A DNA stretch of 35,197 bases, from IMG/VR virus record IMGVR_UViG_3300050821_007874, positions 1-35,197 of that record, one strand, 5' to 3'. This DNA comes from a virus. Of this stretch, positions 1 through 35,197 are shown in pieces. A program made the translations under genes and the position numbers. Each line of letters begins with the position of its first letter. Position 1 is the first letter of the stretch. Below the pieces are notes generated by a model, which was not told the DNA's origin, searched no databases, and saw nothing but the letters and a program-made list of their open reading frames with translations.

Positions 1-1352
1 AGATATTTATTGTCGAAGGCAGCGTCGGGAAGAGTGATCCGGCGCTTTCGCCAGAAGTAATCGAGGCTATTTTTGTCGTACTGCTTGAGAATCGACCACG
101 CTTGCTCATAGACCGTGGTGGTGGAGTCTTTCGAGATCCGGGCACGCAGATCATTACTTTGCTGCATGACGGTGGAGATGGAATTGACTTCCGTCGCAGT
201 ACGGCTCTTATCTTGCGTGTTGGCATCTCCAATTCCAAAGTCTGGAATTCCCACACGTTGCTCGGCCAAGGACTTGTTATTCTGGACTTCCTGATCAAAA
301 TCTACCGGCGGCGGGGGTTGCTGGACCAGCTGAAGGATCGCGTCATAAACCGCACCCGGTTCCCACCTGATGTTTTGGGCGTTAACCGATCCTCCTTGGC
401 TGGAAAGAACCGGGCGGTTAGCGATACTCATATAATCCAGCTTCTCATTCCACATCTTTGTGGCGCTAGCTTCATACATCTGGACCAGTTCCATGACGCC
501 TCGGGACGAATAAAACATCTCGTCCAGCCATTCGTAAGGCAGAGCACAGATCGGCACCTGATGATGATCGTACGGCAGCTTGAAGGTGGCGCGGGCCGGT
601 TCGTCCGGCGCTAGCGGCGAAAAGGTCTGAACCTCAATGTTGCCGTCATCCAGCTTCTGATAAACTTCCCAGAGGATGATCAGATCTCGCAACCGGGTGT
701 AGCTGAGTCCTTCGGCCTGATAAGTCGATTCCCGATATTTATTGTCGGGTTTCCCGTCGCCTTTGATGGAATCGATGAAATCATCATCCATGTTGTACCC
801 GCAACTGGTCCCGCTCCGGCGGTAATCGGCTTCGCTCATGTGCATGACATGACAAACCCGATCGGCTTCCTGTAAAGTGGTGGTCCACGGCGGGACAATG
901 ACGAAATAGGGATGGATGCTAGCAAAGGCCAGCCGGTTCTTGGCGCCGTCCCAATAAGTCTTGATCAGGCCCATCCCGTTCTGAAGCGTCGAGTCCATTG
1001 CGCACATCATTGCGCGGGTAAAATTGGAGCGCTCGCGGACCTGATAATCGAACCATTGAGCAACGGAATCGGTGTACGAATCCCCCTGCGATTCCAACGA
1101 ATAAAAGGATGCTAGCAGCTCAGGCCCGAATACCCACTGCATGTAGTAGGCTTTCAGTTTCCCGATGGTGGTGTCACCCAGAGGCACGTGCATGTCTGCC
1201 GCGCCGGACCACGGTTTCCGCGCCCGGCGAACGCCATGTTTCCGCATCTTCCCCCAAAGGATCTGTCGGCCTTCCCAATCGGAACGGTCGTCAAGATCCT
1301 TCATGATCTTGCCGTACAACTCGTTATCGTAATTAGAGGAATCGTCAGACAA
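1..1352 (-). CDS. Portal protein, 3' end cut by window edge
   Basis: Forms the dodecameric ring at the capsid vertex through which DNA is packaged and ejected. About 450 codons are visible and the frame stays open to base 1, so the C-terminus lies outside the window. Portal-like blocks are a WSGAADMHVPL segment near the N-terminus, a central stretch with SSRGVMELVQMYE followed by ANRPVL, and TATEVNSISTVMQQS near the visible end. The start is uncertain. TTG at 1352 follows the preceding stop by 11 bases but has no clear Shine-Dalgarno sequence, and an in-frame ATG lies about 50 bases downstream. It ends the visible terminase-portal operon. Portal identity is from recognised sequence pattern, not a database search. 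Confidence 0.85.
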   Translation of the reverse strand, partial: MSDDSSNYDNELYGKIMKDLDDRSDWEGRQILWGKMRKHGVRRARKPWSGAADMHVPLGDTTIGKLKAYYMQWVFGPELLASFYSLESQGDSYTDSVAQWFDYQVRERSNFTRAMMCAMDSTLQNGMGLIKTYWDGAKNRLAFASIHPYFVIVPPWTTTLQEADRVCHVMHMSEADYRRSGTSCGYNMDDDFIDSIKGDGKPDNKYRESTYQAEGLSYTRLRDLIILWEVYQKLDDGNIEVQTFSPLAPDEPARATFKLPYDHHQVPICALPYEWLDEMFYSSRGVMELVQMYEASATKMWNEKLDYMSIANRPVLSSQGGSVNAQNIRWEPGAVYDAILQLVQQPPPPVDFDQEVQNNKSLAEQRVGIPDFGIGDANTQDKSRTATEVNSISTVMQQSNDLRARISKDSTTTVYEQAWSILKQYDKNSLDYFWRKRRITLPDAAFDNKY

Positions 1353-1363
1353 AATGAAAGGGG

Positions 1364-1618
1364 TCAGGCAACGCCGCTGCCTTTGGGAAGAAGAAGGAGG
1401 CCGCTAGGTTTGGAAACGGCGGTAACACCGAGCTTGAGCATGTTAGCACCGATCAATTTCTTGACGGTCCCGGTTAGCGTAGCCCCAGCGCTCTGGCCGG
1501 ATCCAACGGTGACAGTGAGAGGATCGCCTGCGGCGATGGCTCCTCTGGCAACCAAGGTCAGTAGCACCCGGCCTCCGGCCTGATTGGCGAATGCCGCCCG
1601 TTCAAGTGTGGTAGCCAT
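1364..1618 (-). CDS. Hypothetical 84-aa protein upstream of portal
   Basis: Not recognised. The protein is small, rich in Ala, Gly, Val and Leu, with alternating hydrophobic residues (for example GRVLLTLVARG and DPLTVTVGSGQ) that suggest a small beta-rich fold. The start is supported by AAGGAGC a few bases upstream of the ATG. It lies 3 bases after the preceding gene and just before the portal gene, so a virion or assembly role is possible but unproven. There are no cysteines, no signal peptide and no convincing membrane segment. It ends 11 bases before the proposed portal start. Confidence 0.7.
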   Translation of the reverse strand: MATTLERAAFANQAGGRVLLTLVARGAIAAGDPLTVTVGSGQSAGATLTGTVKKLIGANMLKLGVTAVSKPSGLLLLPKGSGVA

Positions 1619-1621
1619 CGC

Positions 1622-1957
1622 TTAAAGCTCCTTTGCGGTGATGGTTGCCGGAAGGACTGGACGAGCAATGATCGTGATCTCCATCACGGTATGAGAAGCT
1701 TCGCCTTCGAGATCGTCGGCGGCAGCTTGCCAACCGACTTGCCAACGATCAGCGGTCAATTGCCGGACGTAAGGATCGCTAGCTTTCAGATCGTCAGAGA
1801 GATCATAAGACGACTCGATCAAGGTCCGGATCGTCGAATCCAAGCTCAAGGTGACCCACGATTCAGGAGGCGTTTTTCCCTCTTCTTCGCCCCGGATGAA
1901 CTTGAGCGGATCAACGGCCAGAATCGGGATCAACCGATCTTTAGTTGCCGCGCTCAT
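1622..1957 (-). CDS. Hypothetical 111-aa protein in the terminase-portal operon
   Basis: Unrecognised protein. The start is placed at the ATG whose last two bases overlap the TGA stop of the preceding gene (ATGA), typical of translational coupling here; an ATG 18 bases upstream would add MGGGAS. The sequence has an acidic middle section (RGEEEGKTPPESW) and a C-terminal half with alternating hydrophobic residues (HTVMEITIIARPVLPATITAKEL), suggesting a mixed alpha/beta fold. Position between terminase and portal hints at morphogenesis, but no specific function can be given. Confidence 0.7.
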   Translation of the reverse strand: MSAATKDRLIPILAVDPLKFIRGEEEGKTPPESWVTLSLDSTIRTLIESSYDLSDDLKASDPYVRQLTADRWQVGWQAAADDLEGEASHTVMEITIIARPVLPATITAKEL

Positions 1958-2565
1958 TGACGCGCCCCCTCCCACTGCGCGGGCTGATCCGGTTGCGGCG
2001 TTTCTTTGGGCGGATCAAGCGGTTTACCTTCTTCGCGAGCATGAGCATCGGATCTTGCTTCCTGCTGTGCTAGCTCGCTCAACTCCGCTTTCTTCTTTTC
2101 GAACTGCTCTTTCTGCTTATCGAAAGCTTTATTGGCGGCTTCCTTCCCTTTATCGCCCAGCTGAAAAGTAGAAACGCCGCCCCAACGTCCGGGCCTAGCT
2201 TCGATCCGGATAATGACCATCGAATCATCGCTGGGAAAATAGAGACTGACTGTTCTTGCTGACTCGTACCGGACTTCAGGATCGCCAATACCATCGGCGA
2301 TAAAAAAAGCTTTCCCGATCAGCTCTTTGATCGAGGTATCGGCGTTGATGTCGTCCTGCTTTTTCGATTCTTCGCGCGCGGCATTGGCTTCTTCGGAACT
2401 GACTCCGTGCGTTGGAGGGTTTTCGTCGTTCCGGTCCTGATACAACTGCTCAGGATTAGCGGTCTGATATTCCTGCTCGGGCGGCTGCTCAACCACTGGC
2501 TGGATTTCTTCGTTGGTTTCCTGAGGGGTAGTCTCAGCCGGGGCGGAAGATGACACGGCATCCAT
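1954..2565 (-). CDS. Hypothetical acidic 203-aa protein
   Basis: Not recognised. The first 75 residues are low-complexity and rich in Glu, Gln, Pro and Asn, so probably disordered. Residues 80-140 look folded (KELIGKAFFIADGIGDP followed by beta-like TVSLYF and MVIIRIEARPG). Residues 140-175 are a charged, coiled-coil-like helix (KAFDKQKEQFEKKKAELSELAQQ), and the tail is Pro-rich. A disordered arm with a helical charged region is compatible with a scaffold or chaperone in head assembly, but this is inference from composition and position only. It is the first gene after a 150-base gap downstream of TerL and overlaps the next gene by four bases. Confidence 0.7.
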   Translation of the reverse strand: MDAVSSSAPAETTPQETNEEIQPVVEQPPEQEYQTANPEQLYQDRNDENPPTHGVSSEEANAAREESKKQDDINADTSIKELIGKAFFIADGIGDPEVRYESARTVSLYFPSDDSMVIIRIEARPGRWGGVSTFQLGDKGKEAANKAFDKQKEQFEKKKAELSELAQQEARSDAHAREEGKPLDPPKETPQPDQPAQWEGARQ

Positions 2566-2715
2566 GAAAACAAAGCTAGATCAGACTTGTCTAGAATTGT
2601 AAAGCCTGATATTTCGAAACCAACAACAAACAGATAACTCTGAATGCTTGTAATACGACTGCCAAACTTGTGATCATACCCGGCCCCGCGTGTGCGGGTG
2701 TCCGGGCCACAAGGC
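2566..2715 (-). promoter_or_regulatory. Gap after TerL with hairpin and candidate promoter
   Basis: This 150-base gap separates TerL from the next gene. Just after the TerL stop the leftward strand reads CCCGG-ACAC-CCGC-ACAC-GCGG-GG-CCGGG, an interrupted GC-rich hairpin (about 2680-2706) without a T-tract, so at best a processing or rho-dependent site. Further on, TTGGTT and TACAAT are separated by 16 bases (about 2585-2615), a weak sigma70-like promoter match pointing at the 203-aa gene. Both assignments are by eye. Confidence 0.3.
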
Positions 2716-4155
2716 TTATTCTCCGGCCCAACCGCCGATCTTTTTCTGGATCGAGACTTCCTTGGAGCCGCCAGCTTCCCTGAAATCTTCCGGCAACCCA
2801 TCGTAATACTGATCCAGCTGTTCCCACGGGTCATCGGTCTGCTTAACGAACTTGGCAAAGCTAGCGCTCCCGAGGGCGAACGCTCCGGCGACGGCATCGG
2901 CGCGGTCGGGCGATTTGAGGCCACGCGCTTTCATGTCATCCTTGGATTCCAATCGGACCCGGCCTTTCAAATCGTAAAAGATCCGGCGGGTGGTCAATTG
3001 AGAGATCAAGGTCGGATCATTGATCAAAACGATCTCACCTTTCTCGATCATCCTCGAGAGCTTCCCCCAAATCTCCATCCCTCTATTATAGTACACGTCA
3101 TTTCGGCCAGCTTTGCCGCCGAAATCGAACCGGTTAATCGACCAGCCAGCGTCTGCTAGCATGTCACACATAGGGGTGCCCATTCCTCCGGCATCCCCCC
3201 AGATCTGTCCGGCACGCAGATGATGCTTACGGAATTCGATGATAAAACGACCCACGCTGGCAGTCGTATCTCTTTCCCGCCAAGCGATGAGTTCCAAGAG
3301 TTTGTTTCCGGAACGTATCGCAAGAACGTTCTCGTCACCTCCGGCAGCAAAGTCGCAAAAAGCACTATAATCATGGCGTGAAATAAGGGCGCCGGGCGGC
3401 GATTCAAGGATCGCCATCAAGCGCTCGTAATTAACGGCCATCGGGGTGTTCTCATCCTCGGCCATGAACTCGCCATAAATGGTCGAGCGGACGAAGGGGG
3501 CGTGTTCGCCATAGGTATCGATGACATCCTGAATCCGTTCCTTGGAGATATGCGGACAATCAGGAAGCCCGACCTGTTCGACCAGCATGAATTGCTCCCG
3601 ATGGGTGGTAAAAGCGTCATAGAACCGGCCAGTCTTCAGGCCCGGCGACGAGATGAGCAGCTCGACATTGAACGAGCAGCGGTCAAACGCTTGAAAGATC
3701 TCGTTCTCGACCGATTTCGCTTCATCGATGATGATCAGGAGCGGGGAATGCAACGCTTTATGGTGACCTTCGGCCCGTGAACTCTCGTCGGTGGTAAAGC
3801 TGAGAAAGAAACCGTTATCATGGGTCTTGATCGTCCTCCCCAAGAACTCCCAAGCCGGGAACCTGCTAGCGTGCTTTTTCAACGCTGGCATAATTTGAAA
3901 GTCTATTTGTTTGGCATCCGCGCTGGTCAGGACAACCCGGCCTCTGGGGAAACGGTTGAGCCAGCGCAGAATAGCGACGCCGACCACCCGCTCCGATTTG
4001 CCAGCCCCGTTCGGCGCACTGACGGCGACCTTGACCCGATCCAGCTGAGAACATTTATCGACCACGGCAAGGATCTTGTGTTGCCAAGGATAAAGCGGCG
4101 TTTCAAGCCCGATCTCGGCAAAGGCGAGCACATCATCCAAGACCTTGCGGCCCAT
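2716..4155 (-). CDS. terL: Terminase large subunit (TerL)
   Basis: ATPase-nuclease motor that translocates DNA through the portal and cuts the concatemer. At 479 aa it has the normal length. The N-terminal ATPase has Walker A SAPNGAGKS (residues 46-54) and Walker B LLIIIDEA with D144 and E145. The C-terminal RNase H-like nuclease shows D268 in FCDFAAGGDENV, a second acidic block WGDAGG near residue 321, and SPDRADAVAGAF with D417/D420. The start ATG lies 3 bases after the stop of the 70-aa gene. TerS lies about 1 kb upstream in the same operon, with four small genes between. Recognition is strong. Confidence 0.95.
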   Translation of the reverse strand: MGRKVLDDVLAFAEIGLETPLYPWQHKILAVVDKCSQLDRVKVAVSAPNGAGKSERVVGVAILRWLNRFPRGRVVLTSADAKQIDFQIMPALKKHASRFPAWEFLGRTIKTHDNGFFLSFTTDESSRAEGHHKALHSPLLIIIDEAKSVENEIFQAFDRCSFNVELLISSPGLKTGRFYDAFTTHREQFMLVEQVGLPDCPHISKERIQDVIDTYGEHAPFVRSTIYGEFMAEDENTPMAVNYERLMAILESPPGALISRHDYSAFCDFAAGGDENVLAIRSGNKLLELIAWRERDTTASVGRFIIEFRKHHLRAGQIWGDAGGMGTPMCDMLADAGWSINRFDFGGKAGRNDVYYNRGMEIWGKLSRMIEKGEIVLINDPTLISQLTTRRIFYDLKGRVRLESKDDMKARGLKSPDRADAVAGAFALGSASFAKFVKQTDDPWEQLDQYYDGLPEDFREAGGSKEVSIQKKIGGWAGE

Positions 4156-4158
4156 AAG

Positions 4159-4371
4159 CTAGCGGGGCGACTCGCCCAGCACCTCGATGAGAGTTTTGCC
4201 TTTGGGGGAAGTGTAATTGCGGTCATCCTGCCGGACAGCAGCCCTAGCCCGAGCCAGCAGCGGGTCCGGTGACAGTTGAAATCCACTTGGCCTGATCCCG
4301 GTCGCTTCCCCATATTTCTCGATCCATTCCACCAGTTCCATCATGATCGCCTTCTCCTTTTTCGACATCAT
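4159..4371 (-). CDS. Hypothetical 70-aa protein before TerL
   Basis: Unrecognised. The protein has an amphipathic N-terminal helix (MELVEWIEKYGEATG) and a basic middle section (LLARARAAVRQDDRN). The start is ambiguous. The first ATG directly follows the stop of the upstream tiny gene, but AAGGAG lies about nine bases upstream of a second ATG-ATG pair at codons 10-11, which may be the true start. The stop TAG is the centre of a GCTAGC palindrome, 3 bases before TerL. Close packing suggests co-translation with TerL. Confidence 0.65.
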   Translation of the reverse strand: MMSKKEKAIMMELVEWIEKYGEATGIRPSGFQLSPDPLLARARAAVRQDDRNYTSPKGKTLIEVLGESPR

Positions 4372-4476
4372 CTATTTAGTCTTCCAGATCCAGTACAAGA
4401 AAGCCATCAGCAGGATCGCCATGATCAGCCGGGCAACCGGCGATCCAAATCCTCCCGAGCCAAGAACGGTGCTCAC
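4372..4476 (-). CDS. Tiny single-span membrane protein (34 aa)
   Basis: Small frame starting at GTG 4476 and ending at TAG immediately before the ATG of the next gene. The predicted peptide has a Gly/Ser-rich N-terminus (STVLGSGGFGSPVARL), one hydrophobic segment (MAILLMAFLYWIW) and a KTK tail, which is the layout of a one-span membrane peptide with a positive cytoplasmic end. It fills the only gap between two tightly packed genes, which supports it being real. A holin-like or membrane-regulator role is possible but not shown. Confidence 0.5.
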   Translation of the reverse strand: MSTVLGSGGFGSPVARLIMAILLMAFLYWIWKTK

Positions 4477-4480
4477 ACAC

Positions 4481-5184: not shown

Positions 5185-5781
5185 CTACCCTCTCTTCTTG
5201 CTAGCAGCGCTAGCTTCCCTCGCCAAGGCTCGTTTGCTAGGTTTCCTAGCAGGTTTGTTAACTGGCTTAGATGATGACGCGTCATCCTTCCCATTGGTGC
5301 TAGCAGTTGACTTGTCATCCTTGCTAGCGGTGGGATTCGGTCCGCTGCTAGCACTAAACTTGTCGCTAGCGGAGCGCTTGCTAGCTACCAGCTTCTCGAC
5401 TTGGGCGTCAATGATGCTAGCACGGCTCTGAAGCTCTCTGGCAGCTTCTGCGGTGATCACCAAGGTGTTGTTGGTTGTGCTGCTAGCGGTCAAGTTTAGT
5501 TGCACCTCAGGCTTGCTAAGCTGCGTTGCATATTGCCTCTCTAACATCCACGCAGCACCTTGCCAGCCTACGGCGCCATTCCAGATCTTTCTTCGGAAAG
5601 GCTTTTCGAACTCCAAACGCTTTTGAAGAATTTGTTGCCAACGTTCAGTCTGCTTGATTCTAGCTAGCGTCCGCTCTGAAATTCCGGCCAAATACGCTGC
5701 TTGACTCTCAGTAAAAGCGAGAAAAAGGGCTTCGGCAATGGCTGTCAAGGCTTTCTCGCTTATCTGTAAAGGCTTCGGCAT
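5185..5781 (-). CDS. terS: Terminase small subunit-like protein with Ala-Ser/Lys tail
   Basis: Probable DNA-recognition subunit of the packaging motor. Residues 1-60 look like a helix-turn-helix (ALTAIAEALFLAFTESQAAYLAGISERTLARIK). Residues 60-95 contain the block RKIWNGAVGWQGAAWMLERQYATQLSKPEVQL, which resembles other small-terminase-like proteins with a WMLERR...PEVQL region. The last 70 residues are a low-complexity, basic Ala-Ser-Lys-rich tail, plausibly a non-specific DNA-binding arm. Most Ala-Ser pairs in it are encoded GCT AGC, so the gene holds the densest cluster of GCTAGC in the window. It is the first leftward gene after the divergent control region and lies upstream of TerL. Function is inferred from pattern and position. 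Confidence 0.7.
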   Translation of the reverse strand: MPKPLQISEKALTAIAEALFLAFTESQAAYLAGISERTLARIKQTERWQQILQKRLEFEKPFRRKIWNGAVGWQGAAWMLERQYATQLSKPEVQLNLTASSTTNNTLVITAEAARELQSRASIIDAQVEKLVASKRSASDKFSASSGPNPTASKDDKSTASTNGKDDASSSKPVNKPARKPSKRALAREASAASKKRG

Positions 5782-7478: not shown

Positions 7479-7500
7479 AAGCTAGGTTCGCGGCTGTCTG

Positions 7501-12619: not shown

Positions 12620-13209
12620 GCTACGTTTGTGTCGAAAGGATTCGGTATACCATTCCACAGTTTGCCGAATAATTTCAAACCATCATCGTCAGGTGGCAGC
12701 ATCTGTAAAAGCTCAATGATCATTGTCTTGGCTTCGCGGGCCGTAAGGTGACCATTGAGCTTCCCTTGCCCTAAGCGCTCGGCGGTGCGTTTCCACGCCA
12801 TGCCGTGGCTCTTGGCACTGTGAAAGGTCATCAGCTTCCAAGCGATGTCGTTATCGCTTTCGGCCAGCCGGATTCCGTAGCGCTTCTTGCCGCTGCCGAT
12901 GGGAATGACCAGTAACGCTTCGGCCATATCCACCGGCTTGAGGTCGCGGAAGTTGTGCTCTCTGTTAGCAGGCTTGATGTACCATTCCCTCGCCACGGTA
13001 TGGATCAGCTTGTCCTCGCCTATCATATCGCGGATGCACCGCTGAATGGCTGGCAGATTATCCTGTACCAGTTCCAACATCGTCGGAGGAGGAGCCTTTC
13101 CATAGGACTCCTTCCACATTTCCTTGACGCTAGCGTCATCAATTCCCTTCCCTAGCAAAGATACCCAACCTTCGGCTAGAGCCATTATCCAAGGGGCGGA
13201 CTGTCTCAT
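12616..13209 (-). CDS. Hypothetical 197-aa protein downstream of parB-like gene
   Basis: Unrecognised. Helical N-terminal 70 residues (APWIMALAEGWVSLLGKGIDD, MLELVQDNLPAIQRCIRDMIGED), then a beta-containing region (LLVIPIGSGKKRYGIRLAESDNDIAWKLMTFHSAKSHGMAWK), and a C-terminal helix-turn-like part (LTAREAKTMIIELLQMLPP). The start overlaps the previous stop as TAATG. Its place beside ParB-like and replication genes suggests a DNA-related role, without direct evidence. Confidence 0.65.
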   Translation of the reverse strand: MRQSAPWIMALAEGWVSLLGKGIDDASVKEMWKESYGKAPPPTMLELVQDNLPAIQRCIRDMIGEDKLIHTVAREWYIKPANREHNFRDLKPVDMAEALLVIPIGSGKKRYGIRLAESDNDIAWKLMTFHSAKSHGMAWKRTAERLGQGKLNGHLTAREAKTMIIELLQMLPPDDDGLKLFGKLWNGIPNPFDTNVA

Positions 13210-14471
13210 TATTCCGCACCTCCGTTAGTCAGCGCACGATTGCTGCTAGCAACCGGCCTGATGGATTTTGCCTCAGGGGTGAAACGCTTGACGTAGATTT
13301 CCACGCGGGAGATCAAAGATCGCAGGGTCACCACGGTATCCTTGAGGTCGCTTTCCTCGATCTCGGATTTAAATTCGAGAATCGCGTCCAGCTTCTCCGC
13401 AATCAGATCCTGCTCCGGATGGAACAGTTTTCCGATAGCTACCTTAACTTCGACCAAGACCTTTGACAGATCTTTCCGTTCCCGGCTCTGGTGAGAGATC
13501 CGGCTGATGGCTTCCTTAGCACCGGCAGCACCTTTCTTCTCCACCACGATGGCGTGAACGCCCGCCTTGGTTGCCTTGGTCACCAACTCTTTGCCTTTGG
13601 CGCGAAGCTGCCGCTCGGCCTTCTCATGATGCTTGGCTTGGGCCAACGCCTCGGCCCGGCGTTCAGCTGCTAGCTTCTCGGCTTGATCAGCTTTAGCTGC
13701 GGCCTCTTCCTTGCGTTCCTTCCGGAACCGTTCTGCTTCGGCGCGAGCCTTGGCTTCTGCCTTCTCCAACTCCTCGGCTTTCTCGCGAGCTTTCTTGGCA
13801 TCGTTCTTTTGGATTGATGCTAGCAACTCTTCATCCTGCCTAGCTTTTCTAGCACCGGCCACTACCGCCTGAATACCAGAGGTCTTCAGATCCTTGAACT
13901 CTTCCAGTGTTACTAACCCTTCCTCGATATATTGAAGAGCAGTAAGAGCTATATCTATCTTGGAAGATACTTGGCCTGATTTTTTATCTACCCAACCTAA
14001 GAACTTCCCTATGGTTTGGGCATTGTATAACAAAGTAAAATTTTTACTTTGTTCAATCAGGAACGAAGGAGCGCAACGAGATCCGTTAGTTTTTCCCGGC
14101 TTCTCAAGCTTAATCTTTCCAGCGCCGAAGGCTTCCACCACGGCTTGAACTGTCTCCAGTTCGACCAGAGCGGACGTGCCCCACTCTTCCATGTTCTCGT
14201 TGGCCATCATCTGGATCATCGCGGTGTCGTCCAGATCCATGATGTTGAGGGTGATCTCATGGCCGGGTCCGTACTCTTCCTTGAGCGCTACCAGACGGTG
14301 ATGGGCAAACGGGATCTGAAATCGTCCTTCGACTTCGCGGGCCAGCAGCACTGGCCAGACGCCTGTGGTGCGGAAAGAGCTTTTCAGCGCTTCCACCTTA
14401 TCCCGGTGAATCGGATAATGTTCGATGTGCCGGAACGGATTTGGGTCAATATTTTTTAGCTTTACTTGCAT
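13209..14471 (-). CDS. ParB-like protein with long coiled coil
   Basis: The N-terminal 100 residues resemble the ParB/Srx nucleotide-binding domain: LKNIDPNPFRHIEHYPI, then KVEALKSSFRTTGVWPVLLARE and FAHHRLVALKEEYG, near the GERRxxA position of ParB (CTPase/nuclease motif), followed by VELETVQAVVEAFG as a linker helix. Residues about 215-310 are a long Ala/Glu/Lys/Arg coiled coil, which canonical ParB lacks. The C-terminal 100 residues are helical. I chose ATG 14471 (AAGGAAAC upstream) since upstream in-frame sequence is intergenic. No ParA is visible. It may act in replication, segregation or gene control. A 25-base near-perfect palindrome lies inside the gene. Confidence 0.75.
   Translation of the reverse strand: MQVKLKNIDPNPFRHIEHYPIHRDKVEALKSSFRTTGVWPVLLAREVEGRFQIPFAHHRLVALKEEYGPGHEITLNIMDLDDTAMIQMMANENMEEWGTSALVELETVQAVVEAFGAGKIKLEKPGKTNGSRCAPSFLIEQSKNFTLLYNAQTIGKFLGWVDKKSGQVSSKIDIALTALQYIEEGLVTLEEFKDLKTSGIQAVVAGARKARQDEELLASIQKNDAKKAREKAEELEKAEAKARAEAERFRKERKEEAAAKADQAEKLAAERRAEALAQAKHHEKAERQLRAKGKELVTKATKAGVHAIVVEKKGAAGAKEAISRISHQSRERKDLSKVLVEVKVAIGKLFHPEQDLIAEKLDAILEFKSEIEESDLKDTVVTLRSLISRVEIYVKRFTPEAKSIRPVASSNRALTNGGAE
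14029..14053. repeat. 25-base AT-rich palindrome inside the parB-like gene
   Basis: Arms AACAAAGTAAAA (14029-14040) and TTTTACTTTGTT (14042-14053) are exact reverse complements with a single base between. The surrounding 150 bases of the gene are also unusually AT-rich. Candidate binding site for a dimeric protein, perhaps the ParB-like protein itself. Confidence 0.7.
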
Positions 14472-14729
14472 GTTTCCTTGTTTGGTTTTTGAAGGCGGAC
14501 CCGGAATGGATCGGCCTGTGGGGAGAATGATCGGACGAAAATCAAAAGAGTAAAGAATTATTTTGATCAAATAATTCAGATAGCGTGCACCAAGAGGGCG
14601 TGCCGGGCGTTCGGCACTGAAGCCTCTGATGGTGCAGGTGCACACACTCCCTAAAGGGGTGTGCACCATGCACCAACTTCAGGTGCCTGTGGTGCACAGG
14701 TGCATGGGTGTGCACTTAATAACGCGCAT
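14472..14729. promoter_or_regulatory. Candidate origin: iterons plus AT-rich palindrome
   Basis: This 258-base gap lies between the ParB-like and RepA-like genes. GGTGCA or its complement TGCACC starts at 14586, 14631, 14637, 14662, 14669, 14691 and 14699 (and at 14733 in the end of the next gene), with variants GGTGCC at 14682 and GGTGTGCAC at 14707. Opposed copies around 14631-14674 can fold into a long interrupted hairpin. Next to them is an AT-rich stretch (about 14535-14580) containing the perfect inverted repeat GAATTATT-7-AATAATTC at 14555-14577. Repeats plus an AT-rich element beside helicase and primase genes is typical of an iteron origin; an operator cluster is the alternative. Confidence 0.55.
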
Positions 14730-16732: not shown

Positions 16733-17110
16733 CTAGCGCCCGCCACGTCGGCGGTTCTTGAGATCGTCCAGTAGCCATTTCATTGCCTGAATCAGGTCCG
16801 AGTTCCTCCCGGTGCCGTCATCGCAATTCTGGGTGTACCAACGCATGTAGCCGGGGTCGATCTCTGCTAGCTTTTTCCCCTTGTACTTGCCGAAGGTAAG
16901 GACGATTGAGCCGGGCCAGTCCACTTGTTCCTGTGGAACCTTGAAGTCCGGCCCGCTCGGGTCCATTTTCCGCTTGATGCCGCCATGACCGTCCACTCCC
17001 CGCTCGCGCAGGGACTGGATCAGCTTCATGGCCGCTGTCGCCCACTCGCCCGGTTGCGCTGCATGATCGAGCGCAAGGGCGAGGAGCTTCTGTTCAAGCT
17101 CCGTGAGCAA
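16733..17110 (-). CDS. DUF3820/ExoX C-terminal-like protein (125 aa)
   Basis: The segment LTFGKYKGKKLAEIDPGYMRWYTQNC (about 70-95) matches the pattern of the small domain found at the end of exodeoxyribonuclease X and in DUF3820 proteins (FGKYKGxxLxEIPxxYLxW). No exonuclease catalytic domain is present. The N-terminal 45 residues are helical. The start is TTG 17110, four bases after the previous stop; an ATG at codon 28 is the alternative. The stop TAG is part of GCTAGC, 10-15 bases before the primase start. Probable nucleic-acid or protein binder in replication. Confidence 0.65.
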   Translation of the reverse strand: MLTELEQKLLALALDHAAQPGEWATAAMKLIQSLRERGVDGHGGIKRKMDPSGPDFKVPQEQVDWPGSIVLTFGKYKGKKLAEIDPGYMRWYTQNCDDGTGRNSDLIQAMKWLLDDLKNRRRGGR

Positions 17111-17114: not shown

Positions 17115-17486
17115 TTAGTTCTTCAGCTGGATATCATCCGGCTCGAGGTACGAACCAACCTTATTCCGCTTCTTGCCTTGCCACTCTTCAATGACGATAT
17201 GAGCGAACCCTTCGGCCCCAATCAGTTCCGATGGAGTAACTTCAACCTGCTCGTCCGGCAATACCGTCTCGCCGATTGAAATGCGGAATTGATCGATCTT
17301 CCAGCCCGATGATTCGGTGAAGACTAGATTGTCGATGGCCAGCCCGCCGTTCGGCAGACGCAACCATAACTCGATCATTTCGTTACCGTTGCTGCTGGTT
17401 TTGAGGATGGCTTTTTCGACGGTGAACTTGTAATCACCCTCAGACAGGACATCCCCGTTTTGTTGACCACTTTTATATGTAGGCAT
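17115..17486 (-). CDS. DUF669-like protein, probable single-strand DNA-associated
   Basis: Resembles phage DUF669 proteins, small beta-rich proteins encoded in recombination/replication modules and suspected to replace SSB. Visible pattern: LSEGDYKFTVEKAILKTSSNGNEMIELWLRLPNG, then IDNLVFTESSGWKIDQFRISIGE and GFAHIVIEEWQGKKRNKVGSYLEP. I chose ATG 17486, with AAGGAAG five bases upstream; a TTG at 17516 directly after GGAAGTGA would add ten residues. Context between nuclease/annealase genes and primase supports a DNA-binding role. Confidence 0.65.
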   Translation of the reverse strand: MPTYKSGQQNGDVLSEGDYKFTVEKAILKTSSNGNEMIELWLRLPNGGLAIDNLVFTESSGWKIDQFRISIGETVLPDEQVEVTPSELIGAEGFAHIVIEEWQGKKRNKVGSYLEPDDIQLKN

Positions 17487-17625
17487 AACTTCCTTTTCTT
17501 TTGTTTTTAACTGCAATCACTTCCCCTGCCGAGTGGCAGGACTTCCTCTTTACGATAAATTTTTCTTGATGTCCACTTGATTCGTGCGAATCTTGCCGCT
17601 GTCTGAAAGCTTCCTTTCTTGACAT
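17473..17625 (-). CDS. Possible 50-aa basic protein overlapping the DUF669-like start
   Basis: Frame from ATG 17625, preceded by AAGTGATTAGCTT, the initiation motif seen at other genes. The peptide is basic and hydrophilic (MSRKEAFRQRQDSHESS, FIVKRKSCHSAGE, KNKRKGSYAYI). It overlaps the DUF669-like start by 14 bases and spans the hairpin CCTGCC-ACTC-GGCAGG at 17525-17540. It may be a small gene or a translated leader controlling the next one; coding signal is weak. Confidence 0.35.
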   Translation of the reverse strand: MSRKEAFRQRQDSHESSGHQEKFIVKRKSCHSAGEVIAVKNKRKGSYAYI

Positions 17626-17687: not shown

Positions 17688-17798
17688 TCAAGGGAAAGGA
17701 AAACGGTCAGTAACCACTGCGTACAGCATGGTTGCGCTGCATAGCAGCATGAGAATGACCAGTGCCCAGAACAATCGCCATTCTGCTTTTTTGCTCAT
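17688..17798 (-). CDS. Tiny single-span membrane protein (36 aa)
   Basis: Starts at an ATG overlapping the VRR-NUC stop (ATGA). The peptide has a basic N-terminus (MSKKAEWR), one clear membrane segment (LFWALVILMLLCSATMLYAVV) and a short TDRFPFP end. Translational coupling and the clean membrane segment support it. Function unknown. Confidence 0.6.
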   Translation of the reverse strand: MSKKAEWRLFWALVILMLLCSATMLYAVVTDRFPFP

Positions 17799-18202
17799 TG
17801 GATGTTAAAGAATTTCTCAATTTCGTTGGTTGCGTCCGCGTAGTTATAACAAACGCGAACCTCGTTCCCGTCTGTTAGCATCTTCGCGACTTGGTTCCTT
17901 TGTTCTTCGCGTAATTTCTTTTTCCCGATCTTGAATTCGATCCAGATAATCCGGCTGTTCCGATAAACTCCGAAGTCAGGCATTCCTATCACGAACGGCG
18001 ATTTTCTGTCCATCGCCGCGTGGTAATACCCGTACTCTTTCCGCTCCAGATACTGGATGAACAACTGGTGCAGCTCTTTCTCCAGCTGGATCTCCTGCCG
18101 CGACTCCAGTTCCTCCAGAGTCTCCACGCCGTACTTCTCCCGATCTTCCTTGCTCATCAGGCGGACGAGATTGCCATGAATCACCCGTTTAGGCTCAGTC
18201 AT
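17795..18202 (-). CDS. VRR-NUC domain nuclease
   Basis: Small stand-alone nuclease of the VRR-NUC (PD-(D/E)XK) family, which cuts branched DNA. Residues 85-120 carry GMPDFGVYRNSRIIWIEFKIGKKKLREEQ: D at MPDF, then E-F-K as the ExK motif, then the basic helix with EEQ. A Gln/Glu helix precedes it (QEIQLEKELHQLFIQYL). Length 135 aa is typical. Coupled by ATGA to the exonuclease gene upstream and to the tiny membrane gene downstream. Probable resolution of recombination or replication intermediates. Confidence 0.85.
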   Translation of the reverse strand: MTEPKRVIHGNLVRLMSKEDREKYGVETLEELESRQEIQLEKELHQLFIQYLERKEYGYYHAAMDRKSPFVIGMPDFGVYRNSRIIWIEFKIGKKKLREEQRNQVAKMLTDGNEVRVCYNYADATNEIEKFFNIQ

Positions 18203-19296
18203 TTCTTTTTATCCCTTACCAAGGAAGCTTCTTGCGTCCTGATCGTGATGAACGGTGCTAGCACCACGTTCACGTTCTGGGTCGGGGTCTTAGACATCAG
18301 CTCCGTGCCTTTCACCTTTTCCCATGCCGCTTCGATCTTGGTGATACTAACAGAGACGGAATCCCAGAACGCTTTGTCACCGATCACCGGGACCACGGCA
18401 TCCCTGATTTTGGCCGGTTGCTTCAGAATCCGCATCTGCTTCTCGATGATCTTCCAGCCGGGGATAGAATCCGGCTCTTTTGCTAGCACCAGCTTGTAGT
18501 ATTCGCGGACTTCCTTGATGTATTTCTCCATTCGCTCCAGCCGTTCCAGCAACTTGCCTGCGTTCTCCAGCTTTAGCTCGGAAGGATGCTCGCTCTTGGA
18601 TGCGGCTTCCCGCTGAATGGCCGGGCAGATCATCAGCCCGCCGCAATGCTTGCAGTAATCGCCGGTCTTCGGCTGGTTGCCTTCCCTCTCGGCCACACTG
18701 AGCATGGTCCGCAACTTGACCTCGTAATCGAGCACTTCCATCCGGTTGGCCAGATGCGGTTGATACACGTAATGAGGCGAGATTATTTGAAACGTAAACT
18801 CCTGCACCTCAGGCTCTTCTGCTGCTAGCAGGACCGCTTGGCTCCAGAGTTGATCGTTCTCGCGCGGTTCCGGCGCTTTGTTCCAGAGCGATTTGAAATC
18901 GATGATCGCGGCCCTTTTCCGGTTGGGTGAGATCCGGATATAATCCGGCCTGCCGGAAAAGATCGGAGTGATCTCATGATGCAACCACAACCGTTCCTCG
19001 CGGATCACGGTGTCATCGTTCATCGCGCCCCAGCCGCCGAGGAATTCTCGGAAGCGTTTCATGATCTTCGAATAATCCATCCGGTCCTGATCCGTCTCCA
19101 GATCAGCGGACGATTGCTTGAAAATCGCGTCATGCATGGCAGTGCCTTTGTCCCGCCACTCGTCGCCTTTGCCGCCGGATTCTCCGGCCTCCTGCCGCAT
19201 GGCCCGTGCTTTCAGGGTCATGCGGTGAGAAGCTTGGCATTGCATCAAGCGCTGGACGGCGCTAGCACTGGGTAAGCTGTCCCTATCTTGGTCCAT
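18199..19296 (-). CDS. PD-(D/E)XK exonuclease, RecT partner
   Basis: Probable 5'-3' exonuclease producing single strands for the annealase. Motifs: GTAMHDAIF near the N-terminus (a conserved GxxxH in Cas4/RecB-like nucleases), SGRPDYIRI (catalytic D) then AAIIDFKS (DxK), and a C-terminal CKHCGGLMICPAI cluster with three Cys (C-x2-C...C) compatible with an iron-sulphur or zinc site as in DUF2800/Cas4-like exonucleases. I set the start at 19296 (MDQDRDSLPSAS), overlapping the RecT stop as TAATG; a longer frame to 19404 runs inside the RecT gene and is unlikely. 365 aa. Confidence 0.8.
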   Translation of the reverse strand: MDQDRDSLPSASAVQRLMQCQASHRMTLKARAMRQEAGESGGKGDEWRDKGTAMHDAIFKQSSADLETDQDRMDYSKIMKRFREFLGGWGAMNDDTVIREERLWLHHEITPIFSGRPDYIRISPNRKRAAIIDFKSLWNKAPEPRENDQLWSQAVLLAAEEPEVQEFTFQIISPHYVYQPHLANRMEVLDYEVKLRTMLSVAEREGNQPKTGDYCKHCGGLMICPAIQREAASKSEHPSELKLENAGKLLERLERMEKYIKEVREYYKLVLAKEPDSIPGWKIIEKQMRILKQPAKIRDAVVPVIGDKAFWDSVSVSITKIEAAWEKVKGTELMSKTPTQNVNVVLAPFITIRTQEASLVRDKKK

Positions 19297-20300
19297 TAGG
19301 TCGTCGCTCCAGTTGCCGCCGCTGCCGCTTCTTCGGCTTCCGCTTTGGCCTTGGCTTCCTTCAGTTCGGTTAATCGCTTGGCTTGAGTACAAACCACGTT
19401 CCAATTCTTGATCAGCGTCTTGATTTTGGTTTCTGGCAACGATTCAAGCTTATGCTCCACGCCTCTGGGAAAGAGCCTCAGACCGTTGACAATTTCGATC
19501 AATAATTCCTCCGAAATATCGGACTTCTCAGACAACCTTTTCAGGTGTTCCAGATCGGTTCCATCGACCTTTTCCAGCGGGATTTCCTTGGCCGGGATAT
19601 CGGACGGCGCCGAGATGATCGGATGCTCGTGCGCCTTCGGATCGGTCGGGTCAGGCTCAAACGGTGCTGGTTTATCCCGTTCTGGAATTGTTGCAGATCC
19701 CGGCATCGACGGGTCTTCCTGACCTTTCGGTGGCGGTTCGCTGGCCGGGACGATCCTGATTTCCGGCACTTCGTCTGCTAGCTCTTCGGTCAGGTACAAG
19801 CCTTGCAAGACATCGTTGAAATCCTCCCGGTAGCAGAATCCCAAGGCCCGCCAGTAGAGCATCCGGTCAGGATAATTCGACCAGCCACTGCCGGGTTTAC
19901 CGGGATACAGACCCGCTTTCTTAGCTTCCTTGATCGAGAACTCGTTGGTGGTCTTGGTCCGGCCTTTACGCTTGACCGTGCAAACGCACTTGCGGCTTTC
20001 GCCTTCTCCCTCGTAAGACTTGGTTTTGTCTTCCAAGAGTCCGGACCGATCCACTAGAGCCGATGCTAGCGCCCCGTTGATTGCGGTCTTGTTGTTGATT
20101 ACCGAGATGTTCTCGAGCGATTCAAACATATCCAGCCCAAGGCGTTTGCCTTTGAGGATGATCAGGTTGATCTGGGACGGGTTGCCGAGCTTGGTGATCC
20201 CGGCGTTCATGATCTGGCGGGAGATCTGGGTCAGCTGGTCCCACTGGGTATAAACCAGTTCGCCATTTTCGGAGATCGGGATGATTGCTTCTTGGGTCAT
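19296..20300 (-). CDS. recT: RecT-like single-strand annealing protein
   Basis: Phage recombinase that anneals complementary strands. The core (residues about 35-175) has the RecT-type pattern: GKRLGLDMFESLENISVINNKTAINGALASALVDRSGLL, GESRKCVCTVKRKGRTKTTNEFSIKEAKKAGL, and YPDRMLYWRALGFCYREDFNDVLQGLYLTEEL. The C-terminal 100 residues are Pro- and Lys-rich and end in an Ala/Glu helix. It is coupled by ATGA to the ribbon-helix-helix gene upstream and by TAATG to the exonuclease downstream. The pairing of annealase and exonuclease is classical for phages. Confidence 0.75.
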   Translation of the reverse strand: MTQEAIIPISENGELVYTQWDQLTQISRQIMNAGITKLGNPSQINLIILKGKRLGLDMFESLENISVINNKTAINGALASALVDRSGLLEDKTKSYEGEGESRKCVCTVKRKGRTKTTNEFSIKEAKKAGLYPGKPGSGWSNYPDRMLYWRALGFCYREDFNDVLQGLYLTEELADEVPEIRIVPASEPPPKGQEDPSMPGSATIPERDKPAPFEPDPTDPKAHEHPIISAPSDIPAKEIPLEKVDGTDLEHLKRLSEKSDISEELLIEIVNGLRLFPRGVEHKLESLPETKIKTLIKNWNVVCTQAKRLTELKEAKAKAEAEEAAAAATGATT

Positions 20301-31495: not shown

Positions 31496-31498
31496 CGT

Positions 31499-32500
31499 TT
31501 AACTCCACGGATACGAACTGGTCACACGGGTGTAATCGCCTTCGTTCAGGTAATCGCCGGTATCGTACAAGGTCGGAACCACCTGCTGCCGCATCTCGGA
31601 CTGGTTCTTTTCGATGTTCACCGCCGCTTGGATATGGGCGATCCCTTTCTGTTCCGAGTTGTCGGCCTTGGCCAGTTGTCGGCTCTTTTTGTAGAGTGCT
31701 GCTAGCGTGAACTCGATTAAGGCATCCGTGACATGCGACACGCGCGGGACCGAATAATCGCTGTCCAGCGGGTCTGGCTTGAGCTTGACCTGTATCCGGT
31801 AAAAGATCTGCTGGCTTGCCGGAGGTGCCGGATAAAGGACCAGATGGGTGTAAACCGCCGCGCTCATGCTAGCGGGGATAACGGACGGCGCCGAAGCACC
31901 CGGAAACTGGGGTAGAACCGTCAACGGCTGGGTTGTACCGCCTTTGGAGAGCACGTTGATCTGGGCGAACGAATTGACAGTGGTGACGATGGCCGGATTG
32001 GTGGTGGTATCCGGGTTGATCGCCGCCTGCATCTTGTACGTCTCCTGCACCGTGTTGCCGTTGGCATCGAGTCCGGAGATGAAAAGGATGAAGAGTACCG
32101 GGTCGTAGGTGGTAAAAGTCAGTTTCCCCGGATTAAGGTGCGGCCACGCCAGATTCTCGGCCCGGTAATAGAACGGCTGGCGACCGGCCACGCTGGCAGC
32201 GTTTCCTCCAAACCGCTCGATCCAATCGCGTTCCCGATAAGCTAACCGGCTGTAGTTCACGCCGTCCGTGGAAAGCGAAAGAAAGATCACCTCTTCGGCA
32301 TCCAGAGGCAGGAAGATCCGGCCATTGCCGTCCGGATCCAGCGGATACCCGTCAAGGAGCCTCATGCTTTCCCGCCAAGCATGGGAATCGTACATCGTCT
32401 GGTACTTGAGACGGACCGCTTTCTTGGCGAAATCCATCGTCTCAGGACTGATATCGCCAACGGTCTGGCAGGCGAACGTTGCTAGCTCAAGTACAGTCAA
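31499..32500 (-). CDS. Head-to-tail adaptor, P22 gp4/tail-tubular A-like
   Basis: Probable ring protein between portal and tail. The N-terminus (LELATFACQTVGDISPETMDFAKKAVRLKYQTMYDSHAWRESMRLL) has the short helix pattern of tail-adaptor proteins, followed by beta segments (RIFLPLDAEEVIFLSLSTDG) and a C-terminal helix (VTDALIEFTLAALYKKSRQLAKAD). The start is TTG 32500 with GGAGG ten bases upstream; the ATG at 32508 gives a three-codon frame only. The homing endonuclease gene lies directly upstream on the other strand. Confidence 0.65.
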   Translation of the reverse strand: MTVLELATFACQTVGDISPETMDFAKKAVRLKYQTMYDSHAWRESMRLLDGYPLDPDGNGRIFLPLDAEEVIFLSLSTDGVNYSRLAYRERDWIERFGGNAASVAGRQPFYYRAENLAWPHLNPGKLTFTTYDPVLFILFISGLDANGNTVQETYKMQAAINPDTTTNPAIVTTVNSFAQINVLSKGGTTQPLTVLPQFPGASAPSVIPASMSAAVYTHLVLYPAPPASQQIFYRIQVKLKPDPLDSDYSVPRVSHVTDALIEFTLAALYKKSRQLAKADNSEQKGIAHIQAAVNIEKNQSEMRQQVVPTLYDTGDYLNEGDYTRVTSSYPWS

Positions 32501-32535
32501 GTTGTCATACCTCCAAATCTGGCTAATTTTTCCAG

Positions 32536-32943
32536 ATGCTGCCAGAGCGCATTCTGAAAAGGATAATTTACGTAGACGATTGCTGGATATGGACCGGCTG
32601 TATCATCGACGGGTACGGAAGAGTGTCGTGGGAAGGGGTGAACCGCCAACTTCACCGGGTGCTTTATGAACTCTTCAAAGGCGTGACGAACAGAGAGCTG
32701 CATCACACATGCCTGCGTCGGGCCTGCTGTAACCCGGATCACCTTGAGCCAATCCTTAGCAAGAAAGAGCACAAAGCTCTTCATCCACAGACTCGACCAA
32801 CCCATTGCAAGAACGGCCATCCATTCACCAAGATGGTGTTCAACACTACTCATCCAAATGGCCAGCAGGTTTGTCATACTTGTCAGTTAGATTTTTTGAA
32901 AGCGTATCGCAGGAAGAAAAAAGGTCAGACTTTAATGATTTGA
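32536..32943 (+). CDS. HNH homing endonuclease, opposite strand to the tail operon
   Basis: A free-standing HNH endonuclease of the phage homing type. Motifs in order: CWIWTGCIIDGYGRVSW near the N-terminus, ELHHTCLRRACCNPDHLEPIL as the HNH core (HH...C...CCNPDHL), then CKNGHPFT and VCHTCQLDFLKAYRRKKK as a zinc-binding tail. 135 aa, full length. It is the only rightward gene among the tail genes; its 3' end overlaps the end of the collar-fibre gene by 19 bases, tail to tail. This pattern fits insertion by homing. Confidence 0.85.
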   Translation: MLPERILKRIIYVDDCWIWTGCIIDGYGRVSWEGVNRQLHRVLYELFKGVTNRELHHTCLRRACCNPDHLEPILSKKEHKALHPQTRPTHCKNGHPFTKMVFNTTHPNGQQVCHTCQLDFLKAYRRKKKGQTLMI

Positions 32944-33788
32944 TACATTGAAATCCACGGAGGAAGAATCGAAAACGGCGTCCAGCTGCCGACCGCTTGC
33001 GTGGTGTTGATGTTGCTGTAGGCGTTGGAAACGCTGATCGACGCATACCCTACCGCCGTCGCGGCGTTTACGGGACGCACCGCCCAGTCGCCGCCGCCAG
33101 CCTGAATCTGGGGGCCGGGAATGTTGGTTGTTTGGTAGGTATGCTGGTGACCGTTATCGGATGCCGTGTGACCGTGAAGCTGATCAGTGATCGGGTGTGC
33201 GTGACCGGGTAAATTCGCAACCGACAATTGCACGGTGCTAGCACCTCCTTGAACTCCCAAATTAGAAATCCAACCGATAAATTTGCTCACGCAATTCGGG
33301 AGATTGAAGGTGGTTGAACCGTCGCCCGCCCCGTAATACCCGCCGATGGCGGCGAACAAATTGGAGTAAAGCGTTCGACTGACTGCGGTTCCGTCGCAAG
33401 CCAGCCATCCGGCAGGAATATTCGGACCGGCGTAAGGAACGACAATCCCCGGCGGCAAAATGCTGGATACCGGGTGACAATTATTGTCGCCTCCCACGAA
33501 ATCCGTGGCGTTGCCGGAAAGCTGCCGGAGCATTCCGTTCTTGGTGTTGTCTGCTAGCGGGAGAGCGGAACTGGTTGAATTAACGATGGTATCAAACCGG
33601 GCGCGGGCCAGCGTGTTGTCGGTTTTCAGGATCAACATCTGATCGGCTACGTTCAAGGTCGAGCTAGCAACCTTGTTGCCGATCACGTCGGGCTGGATCC
33701 GTCCACGGCCCATGATTCCGTTCATGTTGCTGGCAGCAATGTTCTGCTGTCCGTCCGTAAAGATTTCGTCCGTGATTAAATCGCTCAT
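32925..33788 (-). CDS. Tail fibre with phage tail-collar domain (287 aa)
   Basis: Probable receptor-binding or fibre protein. Residues 110-165 carry the phage tail collar pattern (PYAGPNIPAGWLACDGTAVSRTLYSNLFAAIGGYYGAGDGSTTFNLPN). The C-terminal part is Gly/His/Asn-rich (HAHPITDQLHGHTASDNGHQHTYQ). Residues 75-105 (ALPLADNTKNGMLRQLSGNATDFVGGDNNC) match a segment in the upstream fibre gene. I set the start at MSDLITDEIF, four bases after the upstream stop; earlier in-frame ATGs lie inside the upstream gene. Confidence 0.8.
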   Translation of the reverse strand: MSDLITDEIFTDGQQNIAASNMNGIMGRGRIQPDVIGNKVASSTLNVADQMLILKTDNTLARARFDTIVNSTSSALPLADNTKNGMLRQLSGNATDFVGGDNNCHPVSSILPPGIVVPYAGPNIPAGWLACDGTAVSRTLYSNLFAAIGGYYGAGDGSTTFNLPNCVSKFIGWISNLGVQGGASTVQLSVANLPGHAHPITDQLHGHTASDNGHQHTYQTTNIPGPQIQAGGGDWAVRPVNAATAVGYASISVSNAYSNINTTQAVGSWTPFSILPPWISMYQIIKV

Positions 33789-33792
33789 AAAT

Positions 33793-35082
33793 TTACCATC
33801 CAGTGTCTGCCTGCCAATGCCACATAGCGATCCAAGCTGTCGTAGGAGGCCCGGAAACAAGAAAGCCTCCGAAACCATTTGTTCCATTCCCCTGAACGCC
33901 AGTAATCGACAGATTGGTTGCTGATGAAGCATTGGCTACCGTATTGGGAATTGTTCCATAATTGCGCGGCGACCAACCGCTGACCGCAGTCGGGACTCTA
34001 GCCAGCGATTTGCGATATGGAGTCCAAAAATAGGGAGTCTGAAGTCCGGCTCCCACGCCGCAAATCACCGAACTCGCATCGGTAACTGTGCCGACAGGAG
34101 TCGCGTAATCATAAGACTTCTGAAAATACCGCTGACATTCGTCGAGGTTCTGGGCAAACGGTTTATCAATCAATTGCCCGCATGTCGGTCCCGGTTCATG
34201 CTGAACGAAAGCAAAACTGAATGTTGCCCCGGCATTTGCCAACCAGTTGGAAGCACCGGCTACGGTCAGGAAATTGCCGGTCTGCCATGTATTAGCAACT
34301 GGTGTTGTATACGTGGAGCCTGCCCCCAGACAGATTTGAAGATAATAACCTATTGTTCCGGCGCTAGTATTCCAAGTTACTCCTCCCGGCCACACCGGCA
34401 GATTCGGCAAGGTGATCAGAGTATAAATATTTCCACCGGGAACTGAGCAGGGCAGTACCAAAGATTTGACACTGGTGGAATCCGTCACGGCAACCGTGAA
34501 ATTCAAGGCGACAGAAGAAGACACCAGTAAGGAAATCGAGTGAGTATCACCAACCAATTCACGCAACATCGGACCTTCTACCGGCTGATAGATTTCAACT
34601 AATTCTCCTGCTGCCAGCGTTGCCTGCGCGGTGGTAACGTTAAGAGTCAGGATGGAATTGGTAATAAAGAAATTAGTTCCCGGCAACCTGACTGCACCGC
34701 CGTTAAAATCTTGTTTCTGAGCAGTGAAAGCTCCGGTTGCTGTAGTCTTATTTACACGCCAGCGATCACACTGGTAGTAATTCATTGCCCCTGATACCGA
34801 GAAATTGCCTGTCGCACCACTAACTCGTTGATCAACCTCAAAAGTCGGGTTGCCAATGGCGTTGTATCCACGCGATCTGATTAATTGGATCGCGCTTACG
34901 AGATCCTGACAATGATTGGTTCCATCGACGAAATCGGTGGTTTTGCCGCTGATCTGGCGCAATAAACCGTTCTGGGTGGTGTCTGCTAGCGGCACGGCGG
35001 TTCCGGCATCACCTTTCGGCCCCTGTTTACCGCCGGGGGTAATCAGTTTACCAACGCCTATGACTTGACCGGGAGTAGCCAT
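33793..35082 (-). CDS. Tail fibre/receptor-binding protein (429 aa)
   Basis: Probable tail fibre. The N-terminus has a short collagen-like GGKQGPKGDAG stretch, then the module VPLADTTQNGLLRQISGKTTDFVDGTNHC also seen in the downstream protein. The C-terminal two thirds is beta-rich and has the fibre pattern NPTFEVDQRVSG...YQCDRWRVNK and LDECQRYFQKSYDY near residue 315, which I recall from many tail-fibre receptor domains. I chose ATG 35082 (MATPGQVIG), just after the upstream stop. The last leftward virion gene visible before the collar fibre. Confidence 0.75.
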   Translation of the reverse strand: MATPGQVIGVGKLITPGGKQGPKGDAGTAVPLADTTQNGLLRQISGKTTDFVDGTNHCQDLVSAIQLIRSRGYNAIGNPTFEVDQRVSGATGNFSVSGAMNYYQCDRWRVNKTTATGAFTAQKQDFNGGAVRLPGTNFFITNSILTLNVTTAQATLAAGELVEIYQPVEGPMLRELVGDTHSISLLVSSSVALNFTVAVTDSTSVKSLVLPCSVPGGNIYTLITLPNLPVWPGGVTWNTSAGTIGYYLQICLGAGSTYTTPVANTWQTGNFLTVAGASNWLANAGATFSFAFVQHEPGPTCGQLIDKPFAQNLDECQRYFQKSYDYATPVGTVTDASSVICGVGAGLQTPYFWTPYRKSLARVPTAVSGWSPRNYGTIPNTVANASSATNLSITGVQGNGTNGFGGFLVSGPPTTAWIAMWHWQADTGW

Positions 35083-35083
35083 T

Positions 35084-35197
35084 TCAAGTTGTCTCGTAAA
35101 CCGCAAACCCGGTGTAGTTAATTGAATTAGTCCAGACAGGGTTACCGTTAGTACCTGCCGCGATCAACTGTCCAGTAGTGCTAGTAAGAACCAGAGA
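35084..35197 (-). CDS. C-terminal end of a virion protein, cut by window edge
   Basis: The last 37 codons of a leftward gene that begins outside the window; it stops at TGA 35084, one base before the tail-fibre start. The visible residues (SLVLTSTTGQLIAAG, PVWTNSINYTGFAVYETT) are beta-like and similar in style to fibre and tail proteins. No further assignment possible. Confidence 0.5.
   Translation of the reverse strand, partial: SLVLTSTTGQLIAAGTNGNPVWTNSINYTGFAVYETT

Follow-up and report, generated by a model that had tools for sequence, protein, structure and literature searches.

A dense GCTAGC palindrome in part of a soil phage family, probably a lineage-specific HIP-like mark

Introduction

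HIP1, the highly iterated palindrome (HIP) of cyanobacteria, has been known since 1995, and its function is not settled. Other dispersed short DNA signals include the stoperators of mycobacteriophage L5, many copies of a longer, asymmetric protein-binding site scattered over a phage genome, and Chi sites, which are directional and not palindromic. HIP1 has the sequence GCGATCGC; alternate HIPs are TCGATCGA, GGGATCCC, GGCGCC, rCCGGy, and GCsGC, and the density of HIPs ranges from about 300 to 2,700 8-mers per Mb (PMC4390886). This report concerns the palindrome GCTAGC and its extended form TGCTAGCA in the phage W (IMG/VR record IMGVR_UViG_3300050821_007874; 35,197 bp; GC content 54.6%), the whole of which is the window analyzed here. 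GCTAGC in W and some of its relatives is probably a real HIP-like mark that is lineage-specific, switchable, and selected.

Gene calls in W are taken from open reading frames. The relatives are metagenomic contigs, some of them incomplete, and the absence of a gene is to be read accordingly; the label "soil" is inferred from collection identifiers, not from metadata.

Excess of GCTAGC and its codon context

Exact counting gives 85 GCTAGC and 28 TGCTAGCA in W, for which base composition predicts 10.0 and 0.5, respectively (observed/expected ratios [O/E] of about 8.5 and 54). GCTAGC ranks first among all 6-mers of W both by count and by O/E, and the two densities are ~2,400 and ~800 sites per Mb. 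The sites lie in coding and non-coding DNA, on average 411 bp apart (coefficient of variation 0.89), and their scatter is near-random except for one cluster (Table 1). The original prediction, made from the sequence alone, had put the counts at about 85 and about 28, with less than one of the latter expected, and had the sites dispersed genome-wide at spacings of a few hundred bases; all of this was reproduced. CTAG outside this context is scarce: only 37 of the 122 CTAG in W lie outside GCTAGC, and the other NCTAGN hexamers in coding DNA of W and its relative G001 number 39 against 79.8 expected, a twofold depletion.

In frame, GCTAGC can be read as Ala-Ser or x-Leu-Ala, the third frame giving a stop; the coding sites of W comprise 36 Ala-Ser and 33 Leu-Ala. 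Synonymous codons of 32 W genes were shuffled 300 times, with proteins and codon usage kept. These genes hold 69 GCTAGC against 13.1 ± 3.3 in the shuffles (maximum 22 in any of the 300; ~5-fold; z about 17) and 20 TGCTAGCA against 1.3; among other 6-mers only CTAGCA, itself overlapping GCTAGC, reaches a similar codon-aware excess. A codon or dipeptide origin of the excess is ruled out by this shuffle, and the original prediction came through the check that it had itself named, a codon-corrected model together with a search for other 6-mers in equal excess. The 5,955 bp outside the 32 genes, some of which belong to the left-end portal gene of W, hold 16 sites, a density similar to that inside them (69 in 29,565 bp). 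A fourth-order Markov model expects 79.5 GCTAGC in W, which is no refutation because the sub-words GCTAG and CTAGC are themselves generated by the motif. Ala-Ser dipeptides stand at 1.26-1.43 times expectation in W, G001, and the relative G027 versus 0.76-0.99 in unmarked relatives. Amino acid identity to the unmarked relative G023 is 0.36 at GCTAGC-coded Ala-Ser and 0.43 at other Ala-Ser; since the first value is not clearly lower, an argument from protein cost stays weak.

Flanking bases and the recognition motif

The base 5' of GCTAGC is T at about 60% of sites and C or A at most others, G being hardly ever found there, and the 3' base mirrors this preference. Codon-aware enrichment is 10.5-fold for T and A as the left and right flanks, about 5-fold for A and T and for C and G, and 0.1-fold for G and C; in the weakly marked relatives G024 and G027 the flanking T reaches 73%. 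The true motif is HGCTAGCD with TGCTAGCA as its optimum, T/A flanks being favored and G/C flanks excluded. Among one-off variants of GCTAGC, outer changes are depleted (0.48-0.85) and inner transitions are raised (GTTAGC 2.1, GCCAGC 1.6). Flank specificity that is graded and symmetric would fit the recognition site of a protein or enzyme; simple mutation pressure would account for it less naturally.

Conservation and distribution in the phage family

The relative G001 (IMGVR_UViG_3300050821_007105; 37,152 bp) is 83% identical to W over the alignable 20.8 kb and carries 95 GCTAGC and 25 TGCTAGCA. Intact counterparts were found in G001 for 46 of the 58 aligned W sites (79%), against an average of 43% across all 6-mers and 35-51% among the hexamers adjoining the sites, and GCTAGC is the most conserved of 206 common 6-mers. 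A comparison of the sites with diverging flanks was among the checks that the original prediction had proposed.

Scanning with the major capsid protein of G001 returned 55 related phage contigs, many from the same metagenome, and a terminase scan returned a further set of relatives. GCTAGC has an O/E of 7-9 in G001, L348, L352, and L391 and of 3-4 in G024, G027, and L366; of these weakly marked contigs, G024 and L366 are fragmentary. The remaining relatives are not enriched. With codons controlled, GCTAGC leads all palindromes in W, G001, G027, and G024, and no palindrome of comparable excess was found in G023, G026, or G031-G034. G023 is unmarked though its capsid protein is 96% identical to that of G001 and it comes from the same metagenome sample. 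A capsid tree, weakly supported at several deep forks, places the marked phages in more than one clade. Only some members of the family carry the mark, and close relatives differ in it, a distribution that suggests rapid gain and loss of a selected DNA recognition mark.

One relative, G025 (L407-L408), carries a different palindrome: GTTAAC is present in 48 copies (44 against 16.4 in the codon-aware comparison) with the same T/C flank preference, so that the frame TG-Y-TA-R-CA is common to GTTAAC and GCTAGC. Outside the family, none of the 24 densest unrelated viral contigs among the matches listed, each counted whole, resembles W. The contig L148 (IMGVR_UViG_3300035698_012997) has a twofold CTAG excess and 44 GCTAGC in 19 kb, with no TGCTAGCA in the part examined.

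Avoided palindromes

GCCGGC occurs at most once in six of six marked phages versus two of 33 other contigs, all of at least 5.5 kb (p=8.6e-6, not corrected for kinship). CTGCAG is likewise low in the marked phages, more weakly than GCCGGC. The scarcity of both could reflect a shared restriction environment, that is, a shared host group. Several other palindromes flip between W and G001 (L203/L204), namely CAGCTG (26 vs 0), CCGCGG (1 vs 35), and GTCGAC (1 vs 16), as fits differing restriction pressures on the two phages.

Under the codon-aware null, W also strongly avoids CCWGG (CCAGGC, 1 against 32 expected; CCTGGA, 0 against 25), as well as GCAGCC (2 against 27), CAACAG (1 against 18), CTGCAG, CGATCG, CGGCCG, CCGCGG, and CCCGGG, a pattern that looks like that of a phage whose host has many restriction systems. 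GATC is raised in W (332 copies, 2.5-fold; codon-aware, 285 against 215) and stands at 1.6-2.5-fold in most relatives counted.

Genes and other features of W

The features of W are collected in Table 1. G001 has an equivalent cluster of nine sites at 13078-13350. No methyltransferase was recognized in W by Pfam searches and a motif scan, so that a phage-encoded methyltransferase found no support as candidate reader of the sites; if GCTAGC were a methylation target, a host enzyme would therefore be needed. The gene with a weak ParB N-terminal match is unlikely to encode a reader, as it has no homologue in G001. The terminase of W is similar to those of Akkermansia phages, and its ATPase, exonuclease, and tail proteins are weakly similar to proteins of Rhizobium and Sinorhizobium phages; these similarities point several ways and to no single host. 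A GH75 chitosanase-like gene is present in G001 (L203, 73-744, minus strand), a possible clue to the cell envelope or habitat of its host.

Table 1. Positions in the window of the GCTAGC sites and of genes discussed in the text.
Feature	Position	Strand	Description and evidence
GCTAGC sites	1..35197		85 dispersed, 28 as TGCTAGCA; consensus HGCTAGCD
Large terminase subunit	2716..4155	-	479 amino acids; used for kinship; tblastn to phage terminases, best Akkermansia phages 35%; alignment
Small terminase subunit	5185..5781	-	198 amino acids; contains the cluster; PHROG 4102, E 4e-4; translation
Densest GCTAGC cluster	5200..5487		Nine sites in 288 bp; in-frame Ala-Ser in low-complexity tail of small terminase subunit
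Protein with weak ParB N-terminal match	13209..14669	-	486 amino acids; coiled-coil-like Ala/Glu/Lys-rich middle; no homologue in relatives examined
Small gene with ExoX-like C-terminal domain	16733..17110	-	125 amino acids; only in W, G001, and G027 among relatives examined
SSB-like protein	17115..17516	-	Recombination module; weak match; PHROG 2698 and 378
VRR-NUC/Holliday-junction-resolvase-like nuclease	17795..18202	-	
PD-(D/E)XK exonuclease	18199..19404	-	Recombination module; PHROG 69; Pfam DUF2800, PDDEXK_1
RecT-like single-strand annealing protein	19296..20300	-	Pfam RecT, PHROG 561; hidden Markov model search; only in W, G001, G027, and G025

The favored reading

The reading favored here, at a probability of about 0.42, is that HGCTAGCD, with its optimum TGCTAGCA, is a selected iterated palindromic mark found in some members of a soil phage family, and that the sequence-specific protein which reads it is most likely supplied by the host. 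Selection for recognition by this putative protein would keep the sites at their density; host-supplied candidates are an orphan methyltransferase, a nucleoid protein, or a recombination protein. Phage lineages in this host group would acquire the mark wherever GCTAGC is compatible with their proteins, and lineages in other hosts would be without it, much as some cyanophages carry HIP1. We infer selection over biased repair from the conservation and flank specificity of the sites, and also that a reader protein exists and that the host supplies it. The codon-aware excess, the conservation of the sites, the graded flank preference, the scattered presence on the capsid tree with absence from G023, and the raised Ala-Ser dipeptides all count in favor of this reading. 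The marked phages share the absence of GCCGGC and low CTGCAG, as expected for one host group with shared restriction, which supports this reading. Further support for a host-linked reading of phage palindromes comes from HIP1 in phages of HIP1 cyanobacteria: Nostoc phage A1, Planktothrix phage PaV-LD, and Nodularia phage 2AV2 have 16-18 copies in 30 kb, with 0.1-0.2 expected (first 30 kb counted; L426, L427, L429). Three of the four cyanobacterial phages counted carry HIP1, and phages can therefore share such palindromes.

Several points weigh against the favored reading. No host with comparable density was found among about 1,900 genomes in six group samples (Alphaproteobacteria 385, Rhizobiales 397, Acidobacteriota 347, Cyanobacteria 194, Planctomycetota 294, and Gammaproteobacteria 274; Verrucomicrobiota, Actinomycetota, and Chloroflexota were left out), the maximum being about 60 TGCTAGCA per Mb versus ~800 in W. 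The fourth cyanobacterial phage, Microcystis phage LMM01 (L428), has no HIP1. The mark goes with a phage gene module, so that its source need not be the host, and biased repair acting without selection retains a small share of probability. Genomes from a pattern scan reached at most 219 TGCTAGCA per Mb among the matches listed. An uncultured Campylobacter metagenome-assembled genome (G013, L430-L434) with many TGCTAGCA was set aside on its general CTAG excess of 2.6-fold; GAATTC is raised 8.4-fold, GCTAGC 7.5-fold, and TCTAGA 5-fold in this genome.

Alternative explanations

The gene module offers another source for the reader. In a hidden Markov model search of ten of the larger genomes, all four with RecT (W, G001, G027, and G025) have an iterated palindrome, versus none of the six others (G023, G026, and G031-G034), a count uncorrected for phylogeny. 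The mark could be the phage's own, read by a protein of the RecT-type module (SSB-like, resolvase-like, exonuclease, or RecT) as, for example, a Chi-like or protection signal whose sequence varies with the version of the module. G023 speaks for this, having the capsid and terminase of W and G001 but a polymerase/helicase module in place of the RecT module and no mark, as do the Sak4 module of G026 and the GTTAAC of G025 with its shared flank preference. The association, however, covers only about three independent lineages and is confounded with host, which makes it a lead only; the early regions of G024, L348, L352, and L366 are missing, scans with RecT and the exonuclease gave only phages already known to bear the module, and known Chi sites are, as a matter of general knowledge, non-palindromic. 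A reader within the module, the main rival of the favored reading, is fairly unlikely. Marginally more doubtful is the narrower proposal that a RecT/exonuclease module protein reads TGYTARCA, with versions that prefer GCTAGC or GTTAAC and dozens of evolved sites that would form a palindromic Chi-like or self-recognition signal.

Sites could also accumulate without selection for function if a methyltransferase drove biased mismatch repair or gene conversion, as in the GmeC model for HIPs. GCTAGC shares the G..C-flanked form with HIPs and, like the alternate HIPs, gives way to another sequence in a relative (PMC4390886). The model predicts one-offs mainly at the first or last base, as in HIP1, and with a CTAG core this prediction fails, the outer variants being those depleted and the inner transitions those raised; in unmarked (distant) relatives, moreover, the sites align to sequences that differ at several positions. 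Such an origin is improbable. Far more so is a by-product of restriction avoidance or mutation, in which GCCGGC or another avoided palindrome would become GCTAGC by two transitions. The inverse abundance of GCTAGC and GCCGGC across the family prompted this candidate, and GCCAGC is a frequent aligned precursor, but site-by-site alignment ruled out the conversion: at the GCTAGC sites unmarked relatives never have GCCGGC, and have GCCAGC plus a wide variety of other sequences, while their own GCCGGC sites do not lie at GCTAGC. Avoidance alone needs one change, not two, and leaves the flank rule unexplained. The original prediction had listed a product of mutation bias among possible roles, beside a methyltransferase target and a nucleoid, segregation, or uptake mark; in the form tested, mutation bias is not supported, given this diversity of aligned sequences and the sharp flank specificity. 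The chance that coincidence, codon or dipeptide usage, or an assembly artefact lies behind the excess is negligible: the restriction of coding sites to two codon pairs would suit a codon origin, but the shuffle and the similar density outside genes oppose it, and an artefact is opposed by the conservation of the sites in a separate contig and the absence of the mark from close relatives in the same metagenome.

Phages that share most structural proteins yet differ in the mark, with two palindromes (GCTAGC and GTTAAC) among them, amount to a natural experiment on the origin and reader of such marks, and genomes of phage size make iterated palindromes tractable in the laboratory. The mark may also be a host-range signature, since it is found with a shared set of avoided palindromes.

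Comparison with known systems

No published over-representation of GCTAGC or GTTAAC in bacteria or phages was found in the literature searched, in agreement with the original prediction, which knew of no described GCTAGC equivalent. Its comparison with HIP1 stands in the descriptive sense of a dense, genome-wide, conserved palindrome and fails in the pattern of one-off variants. Like a HIP, GCTAGC is a short palindrome that recurs across the genome hundreds to thousands of times per Mb (TGCTAGCA falls within the density range of HIPs), in excess far past expectation, spread over genes and intergenic DNA, and differing between close relatives. Unlike the HIPs, it is a new sequence, seen here in phages only and without a recognized methyltransferase, and phages whose capsid proteins are nearly identical can differ in carrying it. 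HIP1 near-misses vary mostly at the first or last base, whereas the outer one-offs of GCTAGC lie below and the inner ones above expectation (0.48-0.85 and 1.6-2.1); because of this difference GCTAGC is called HIP-like without being assigned to the repair mechanism proposed for HIP1.

Restriction-site avoidance is a relative of a different kind: the same genomes have many near-absent palindromes that differ between sisters, but GCTAGC has the opposite sign, being enriched and conserved. As an over-represented short signal alongside a recombination module the mark is like Chi, from which it differs in being palindromic with symmetric flanks and so without orientation, in a phage that has its own RecT and exonuclease. 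With the stoperators of L5 it shares many dispersed copies over a phage genome, here in the form of an 8-bp palindrome that lies mostly within genes.

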